From: Candidatus Acididesulfobacter guangdongensis
GTDB lineage: Bacteria; SZUA-79; Acidulodesulfobacterales; Acidulodesulfobacteraceae
Assembly (NCBI GenBank): GCA_004195045.1
Contig: SGBC01000004.1
Location: forward strand, 1 to 64,000
Direction: 5' to 3'
Length of the DNA stretch: 64,000 bases
The notes beneath the pieces were generated by a model. That model did not search any database. It saw nothing but the letters and a program-made list of their open reading frames with translations, and was not told where the DNA came from. This document shows, piece by piece, positions 8,813-53,958 of this stretch (within the stretch, counting starts at the first letter, position 1; the number at the start of each line of letters is the position of its first letter). A program made the position numbers and the translations under genes.

Positions 8813-8828
8813 GCCGCATCTTATATCT

Positions 8829-8947
8829 TTAATCCTGCAATAGAAAGTTATCTGCTCGGAAAAGGTGTCAGATTAATTTTTTTGCAAATATTTTCTTTGT
8901 TAATTGAACTACCTCATATGCAAAAAAATAAAATCTGACACCTTTTT
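8829..8947. mobile_element. Dispersed palindromic element, rearranged copy
   Basis: The copy begins with the family end TTAATCCTGCAATAGAAA (8829-8846). It then has AAAGGTGTCAGATT (8861-8874), whose complement AATCTGACACCTTT lies at 8932-8945. The arms continue inward (TTTTTTTGCA against TGCAAAAAAA), giving a hairpin stem of about 26 bp with a loop of about 30 bases. The terminal inverted repeat on the right has decayed. No protein is encoded. Gap 8813-9135 otherwise holds a second hairpin at 8968-8995 and direct repeats before otsB. Confidence 0.65.
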
Positions 8948-30685: not shown

Positions 30686-30797
30686 ATAAAGTTAAATTTT
30701 AATTTTAAGTTTAAGATTTAGTTTGCAAAACTCATTATTATTAATTATTATTAACTGCAACGCTGCCTGTAATAGTTTTTGCATTTTTAGACCTTTG

Positions 30798-30844
30798 TCA
30801 GACTTCTTTGAGTATCAGACTTCTTTGAGTATCAGACTTCTTTA
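30798..30844. repeat. 17-bp tandem repeat at the 3' end of xseB
   Basis: TCAGACTTCTTTGAGTA occurs twice exactly (30798-30814 and 30815-30831) and a third, partial time (30832-30844). The xseB stop codon (TCA on this strand, 30832-30834) lies in the third unit, so repeat slippage would not alter the protein. Confidence 0.85.
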
Positions 30845-31122
30845 GTGTTGTCATTATCAGCTATATTTTCTACCGTATCTATATTGTCTAAAGGTTTTGT
30901 TTTTATGCCGCCATTTTTATCGGACATTAATTCTTCAACTTTTTTTTCGGCAGCATCTAATTTATTAATACAATATTTAGAATATATAACCCCTTCCTCG
31001 TAAATTTTAAGCGATTCCTCAAGACCCAAATCGCCTTTTTCAAGATTAGCAACATTTTCTTCGAGTTTTTTCAAAGCTTCTTCAAAGCTTAATTTGTTTA
31101 AATCTTTAATGTTTATATTCAT
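30832..31122 (-). CDS. xseB: Exodeoxyribonuclease VII small subunit
   Basis: This is the small helical subunit that wraps the XseA catalytic subunit in exonuclease VII. The conserved core is clear: LSFEEALKKLEENVANLEKG, then LGLEESLKIYEEGV and AAEKKVEEL. The 96 residues are typical, with an acidic Asn/Asp-rich tail. It heads the isoprenoid operon, as in many deltaproteobacteria. Its partner xseA is about 30 kb away at 60856. The upstream gap (31123-31571) holds the complete dispersed element. Confidence 0.94.
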   Translation of the reverse strand: MNINIKDLNKLSFEEALKKLEENVANLEKGDLGLEESLKIYEEGVIYSKYCINKLDAAEKKVEELMSDKNGGIKTKPLDNIDTVENIADNDNTKEV

Positions 31123-31175
31123 AATTCTTTAATTATAATCTATTATTTATTAAATTAAAAGCGGGAAATTATACC

Positions 31176-31280
31176 TTAATCCTGCAATAGAAAATATTTA
31201 TGCATTTCTTTGCTCGGTTAAGCAACGGAAAAGGTGTCAGACACCTTTTCCTGGTAGATAACTTTCTATTGCAGGATTAA
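31176..31280. mobile_element. Dispersed palindromic element, complete 105-bp copy (MITE-like)
   Basis: The ends are a perfect 18-bp terminal inverted repeat, TTAATCCTGCAATAGAAA and its complement. The centre holds GGAAAAGGTGTC-AGACACCTTTTCC, itself palindromic. The left arm includes ATATTTATGCATTTCTTTGCTCGGTTAAGCAA, shared with the copy at 53901. No coding capacity. It lies in the gap 31123-31571 between divergent xseB and the membrane-protein gene. The outermost TTAA on each side could be part of the repeat or a target-site duplication. Confidence 0.8.
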
Positions 31281-31500
31281 AATTGTAATTTTAAATTTTC
31301 ATATAAACTGCACTGACGCAATTAAAAGCAGTGAATCACAATTTCATATTTATCGTATAATGCAAATTTATAAACAGACTGTATATAAAAAAGACAAAAA
31401 TTAAATAATAATTTATTGCATAAAATTTTAGATGTAATATAATATATATAAAAATATAATAAATAATAATTAACTATATAATAAATATACAATTTATTTA

Positions 31501-53800: not shown

Positions 53801-53900
53801 TATAAAATATTATTGTCCATATACAAATCTATATATAAATATAAATAGATATAAACTATATAAAATAGATATATAAAATATTATAAATTATACATATACC

Positions 53901-53950
53901 TTAATCCTGCAATAGAAAATATTTATGCATTTCTTTGCTCGGTTAAGCAA
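53901..53950. mobile_element. Dispersed palindromic element, half copy
   Basis: Bases 53901-53950 match the left arm of the complete copy (31176-31225) with no difference that I can see: the end TTAATCCTGCAATAGAAA, then ATATTTATGCATTTCTTTGCTCGG and TTAAGCAA. The central palindrome and right arm are missing. The flanking ATACC on the left is also shared. It sits just upstream of the tetR promoter in the gap 53801-54128. Confidence 0.75.
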
Positions 53951-53958
53951 AAAATTTA

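Follow-up and report, generated by a model that had tools for sequence, protein, structure and literature searches.

A putative IS1380-mobilised MITE with palindromic cargo in the intergenic DNA of Candidatus Acididesulfobacter guangdongensis

Introduction

Three short sequences sharing one inverted end lie in a 64,000-nucleotide stretch of the Candidatus Acididesulfobacter guangdongensis genome (the window, that is, the whole stretch of DNA analysed), and they raise the question of what kind of element they are and which enzyme could have moved them. A first-pass annotation of the window described them as MITEs or REP-type elements mobilised by a transposase elsewhere. The question was taken up here in the window's genome (2.22 Mb in 5 contigs, 99.2% complete) and in other genomes of its phylum.

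Three copies in the window

The complete copy carries a perfectly inverted 18-bp end, TTAATCCTGCAATAGAAA, at 31176-31193 and 31263-31280 (18 of 18 positions), exactly where the first-pass annotation had placed it, and, at 31227-31251, an inner GGTGTC-GACACC palindrome with 12-bp arms, GGAAAAGGTGTC-A-GACACCTTTTCC. The same 18-mer recurs without mismatch at 8829-8846 and 53901-53918; allowing up to three mismatches, the window holds four matches compared with 0.26 expected from dinucleotide shuffles (largest count 2). Target-duplication analysis, described below, sets the true ends 2 bp beyond the 18-bp repeats, and the complete composite element, in all probability an IS1380-type MITE with a short palindromic cargo, occupies 31174-31282 on the plus strand. 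Alignment to the module consensus divides it into a left module with its terminal inverted repeat (A-left, 31174-31225, plus strand, consensus positions 1-52, repeat at 31174-31193), the short form of the palindromic module B (31227-31251) and a right module with its own repeat (A-right, 31252-31282, plus strand, repeat at 31263-31282). The duplication analysis and the empty sites in relatives identify TTATA at 31169-31173 as the left target duplication and TTGTA at 31283-31287 as the right one; the empty site has TTGTA in two of the four relatives, and TTGCA and TTATA in the others. The complete copy folds into a strong hairpin (z -9.5). About three copies of TCAGACTTCTTTGAGTA form a short tandem repeat at 30795-30846, where the small minus-strand ORF adjoining the complete element has its 3' end.

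As had been noted, the two other copies share these ends and differ in completeness. The 8829 copy is a right arm (A-right without the left arm, 8827-8857, minus strand) joined to the inner palindrome in a complete version of 89-91 nt, the long form of B (8858-8946, minus strand), a near-palindromic inverted doublet that is 98% identical to the consensus and folds as one long hairpin. The 53901 copy is a left arm only (A-left without cargo and right arm, 53899-53955, plus strand, by module alignment). All three sites lie between ORFs, in agreement with the intergenic placement first described.

Copy number and modular build

The count of three copies holds within the window but is only its share of a much larger family: the genome-wide search that the annotation had recommended returned 138 matches to the 18-bp end at up to two mismatches, whereas a reversed control pattern returned none in the same genome search. 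One hundred of the 138 ends were listed, falling into 75 clusters, and the individual copies described here come from the stretches around those places. The element is a 'hitchhiker' transposon, short and non-coding, with copies at about 100 places in the genome.

Building a consensus, a further step proposed for these repeats, revealed a modular design of A-left (52-59 nt, carrying the left end), an optional B, and A-right (25-31 nt, carrying the right end), where B is either a 91-nt near-palindrome or a collapsed 25-nt hairpin. Copies take the forms A-left+A-right, A-left+B+A-right, A-left+B, A-right+B and single arms. The minimal form, A-left+A-right, measures about 80 bp (76 nt when counted across the 18-bp ends, inclusive). 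It is a candidate for the clean form that preceded insertion of B, although its junction differs from that of the B-containing form by about 5 nt on each side. Lengths range from 76 to 230 bp, with no coding capacity for a transposase. None of the 34 paired elements of the window's genome overlaps an ORF of at least 100 aa, while such ORFs cover 65% of their flanks.

Target duplications and true ends

For 39 paired elements (34 from the window's genome and 5 from relatives), the two flanks were compared over a range of offsets. Exact 5-bp duplications were present in 25 of the 39, against a mean of 1.2 and a maximum of 6 in 2,000 shuffles, and 32 matched at four or more of the five positions. 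The signal forms a single sharp peak at an offset of 2 bp outside TTAATCC on both sides, and beyond 5 bp the matches fall to background. The real ends are therefore inverted repeats of about 20 bp, CCTTAATCCTGCAATAGAAA, with a variable terminal dinucleotide (CC/TC/CT; GG/AA/AG/GA), flanked by 5-bp target duplications.

The link to IS1380 transposases

The CC ends together with the 5-bp duplication led to the IS1380 family being suspected before any IS1380 gene was searched for; IS1247, a member of this family, likewise makes 5-bp target duplications (PMC3281130). The prediction was tested by a PF13701 profile search across the phylum. IS1380 transposases were found in relatives, with four of five tested scoring above the cut-off of NF033539 and the fifth being a shortened reading frame. 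Most of these insertion sequences have ends that are variants of the MITE ends (CTTTAATCCTTCCATAGAAA, CCTTAATCCACCGTTAGAAA, CTTTAATCTTGCAATAGAAC, CCCTAATCCCGATTTAGAAA), and the duplications read from their flanks (GTTAA at L111, TTTTA at L095) are 5 bp long, the same length as those of the MITE.

The closest match comes from the relative G016. There, at L275, the contig boundary truncates an IS1380 transposase frame whose start has an exact 20/20 end about 110 nt away and whose protein fragment matches NF033539; at a second locus (L276), an end with two mismatches has the same spacing from an IS1380 gene. Among the complete IS1380 elements seen, none has the exact MITE end, the exact-end one being cut by the contig end, and the closest is that of G022, with ends CTTTAATTTTGCAATAGAAA and CTTTAATCTTGCAATAGAAC, a GTTAA duplication and 17/20 positions shared with the MITE (three differences) at each end. 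MITE ends and IS1380 genes co-occur in G016, G022, G002 and G006. No end of the MITE type lies near the members of a second IS1380 group (L094, L108, L109), which limits the candidate mobilisers to some of the IS1380 lineages.

A transposase gene with ends of this type was found in relatives, with the exact end in G016, but not in the window's own genome. That genome, 99% complete, yielded no IS1380 gene, intact or decayed, either with Pfam or with a profile built from seven local transposases, and the MITE is therefore orphaned there. Long pairs of ends in the same genome were considered as possible transposase carriers and rejected, since three of them (L059, L068, L069) hold ordinary genes and no transposase. 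A 1.55-kb pair of ends at L140 has ordinary genes inside and is a chance pairing.

At one locus (L107:1236-3008), two elements stand in tandem at one target: a complete IS1380, whose ends are CCCAAATCCCGATTTAGAAA, and a MITE, whose ends are CCCTAATCCCGATTTAG. Each is bordered by CTTTA, giving three copies of this pentamer, and the two seem to share the same target rule.

MAGs with the names LSA5, YF1, DS3, DBS and others also contain the exact 20-mer, and there is a single occurrence in a Clostridiales MAG; a collection of this size would be expected to give about 0.5 matches by chance. Five viral contigs match the 18-mer, with no paired end nearby. In G023, a genome of a different genus (L120), there are 32 matches to the minimal element, the best being 96% over 56 nt including the interior, which suggests either movement from one genus to another or a recent common source.

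The inner palindrome

Module B has a distribution of its own. Its short hairpin, AAAGGTGTCWGACACCTTT, has 44 sites in the window's genome (up to two mismatches), several of them outside any outer element and at least 13 without an outer end nearby. The 91-nt long form is present in at least 40 copies (40 candidates scored). Ten long copies without a listed end were checked. Seven have an outer arm or end; the remaining three are stand-alone copies with identical sharp boundaries, GGAAAAGG...CCTTTTCC, in unrelated flanks. The module is an inverted doublet that folds as one long hairpin (z -9.0). In the relative G021, a RAYT gene (L211) has AATAAAGGTGTCAGATTTATTTATT, which resembles the inner palindrome, on both sides, and the encoded protein scores just below the cut-off of the REP-associated tyrosine transposase model. 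The stretch around that gene (L211:519-2201), which belongs to another genus, has at least three AAAGGTGTCAGATTTATTT repeats per side, inverted across the gene.

The stand-alone copies, the inverted doublet and the likeness to RAYT-flanking repeats together indicate that B is probably a separate REPIN-type repeat that has become cargo of the MITE, a call held with less certainty than that of the MITE itself. It is possible, if doubtful, that B is instead another MITE in a state of decay, or a piece from inside the original IS1380-derived element that was later loosened. Such an origin would sit well with the lack of a visible target duplication at the three stand-alone long copies and with the restriction of the exact short hairpin to the window's genome, the longer palindrome GAAAAGGTGTCNGACACCTTTTC (up to one mismatch) occurring in no other genome of the phylum searched. 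The window's genome also has no cognate RAYT, its two Y1 matches being an IS605-type tnpA beside tnpB and a fragment interrupted by a stop codon. It fits poorly, however, with the common boundaries of the stand-alone copies, the doublet structure and the match of the core to RAYT-flanking repeats, and also with the finding that in other genera the corresponding place in the same MITE backbone is taken by a different palindrome (CTGGATTCCCGC...GCGGGAATGACA).

The IS605-type tnpA and tnpB pair (L031:253-3112) has two small ORFs upstream, which by eye look like a Phd/VapC-type toxin-antitoxin pair.

Empty sites and half copies

Six congeners were searched for the sequences flanking the three window copies, and all three sites, as the annotation had suggested checking, lack the element in close relatives. 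The 31176 site is cleanly empty in four of them (G001, G003, G005, G004), reading AAAAGCGG(G/C)AAATT(G/A)(T/C)AATTT as one continuous stretch that lacks the element and one of the two duplications. The 8829 element is missing from G001, a genome about 90-94% identical in those flanks that were compared. At 53901, the window's left arm stands in place of native DNA that the relatives G001, G003 and G005 keep, and about 45 nt of this native DNA is gone from the window. Ends at up to one mismatch number 115 in the window's genome versus 0-32 in the six congeners, which points to a lineage-specific burst. The annotation had reasoned that a family of only three copies, invariant among relatives, would speak against mobility; the 138 ends and the empty sites show the opposite.

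The loss of native DNA at 53901, together with the absence of a second target duplication at that site, makes this copy a deletion derivative, the deletion having removed the rest of the element along with neighbouring DNA. The earlier suggestion that the left arm can stand alone is not upheld by this copy. Many half copies break at the junction with B, and as a class they look like deletion derivatives and not free-standing left arms. Rather unlikely is an origin by one-ended transposition, in which IS1380 elements take adjacent DNA with them and no deletion follows insertion. This family is known to include transposable modules in which a single IS is combined with adjacent DNA (PMC3281130), and the recurrent breaks at the B junction would accord with it, but the 45 nt lost beside the broken end at 53901 fits deletion better.

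The element as a whole

Taken as a whole, the element is best explained, with a probability of about 0.9, as a MITE that an IS1380-family DDE transposase has moved in trans, with B as a probable RAYT/REPIN-type cargo. In the mechanism that we infer from the sequences, such a transposase would recognise the ends of about 20 bp (CCTTAATCCTGCAATAGAAA) and transpose the element into AT-rich intergenic DNA, making a 5-bp target duplication; it may since have been lost from the window's genome or have been supplied from outside. B would be an independent repeat, presumably moved by a RAYT, that entered the MITE at a single place and then spread mostly by hitchhiking with it. Of the two identities first proposed, the non-coding intergenic MITE moved in trans therefore stands, with its many copies, duplications and empty sites, and the REP-type one applies to the inner palindrome but not to the outer mobiliser, which is of IS1380 (DDE) type and not a RAYT.

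A REP/REPIN family moved as a unit by a RAYT (a Y1 tyrosine transposase), with the outer ends as part of the REPIN, is highly improbable, even though the palindrome resembles the repeats at relatives' RAYT genes and the L211 protein comes so close to the REP-associated model. Target duplications are not known from Y1 enzymes of the IS200/IS605 type, and the outer ends do make them, at 5 bp. These ends also match those of IS1380 elements and occur without the palindrome (the 76-bp form), just as the palindrome occurs without the ends. The window's genome has no RAYT, and a RAYT as mobiliser of the outer element was ruled out there, its own Y1 matches being of IS605 type. Functional regulatory or structural repeats under selection (terminators or protein-binding sites) are less probable still, since the strong hairpins and strictly intergenic placement that would suit them are outweighed by target duplications that a terminator role does not predict, by empty sites in four congeners, by copy numbers of 115 versus 0-32 between congeners and by the lack of conservation of the three tested orthologous positions across the genus.

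Relation to known systems and implications

The MITE family is new and of a known type, the IS1380-linked MITE, with an ordinary mechanism, an unusual nested cargo and a host without the transposase; a limited look at the open-access literature found no description of an IS1380-linked MITE. IS1380 insertion sequences (IS1247 and the G016, G022, G002 and G006 elements of the phylum) share its ends, C-C/T-(C/T)TAATCC... to TAGAA(A/C), and its 5-bp duplications, whereas the element of the window's genome is 76-230 bp long and without a transposase gene. Like other bacterial MITEs (PMC10969869), it is short, non-coding and intergenic, with inverted ends, target duplications and many copies, but it has for cargo a second palindrome that is also dispersed on its own. 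B resembles REPINs, in which REP doublets form hairpins (PMC3116915), in being an inverted pair with a spacer that folds as one hairpin and in having relatives that flank RAYT genes. It differs in that its own genome lacks a RAYT and most of the long-form copies examined lie inside or beside a MITE. Pneumococcal BOX elements have a modular boxA-boxB-boxC build. They too combine ends with an optional central module and lose modules independently (PMC3049150), but their sequence is unrelated, and for the present element a mobilising family can be named.

A probable mobiliser is thereby named for a repeat family that has abundant intergenic copies in an uncultivated bacterial lineage and for which no earlier description was found, and the family offers a clear case of MITE copies that remain while the transposase is absent from the host. 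In the REPIN model, movement of REPINs is tied to a RAYT (PMC3116915), and nested REPIN-like cargo would be a possible route by which REP elements persist and spread without one. More tentatively, the partnership, which would join two mobile systems of unrelated kinds, may have arisen repeatedly, an IS1380 (DDE) MITE backbone having gained different REP-type palindromes at a corresponding position in different lineages of the phylum; if this is true, REPINs travel as the cargo of DDE transposons and persist after their own RAYT is lost. The palindrome is of the GGTGTC type in the window's genome and in LSA5.bin80, and of the GGATTCCCGC type in other genera, which also have a second set of ends. 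In LSA5.bin80, MITE copies at two loci (L159, L154) carry GGTGTC- or GGCGTC-type cargo, so the composite also exists outside the window's genome.
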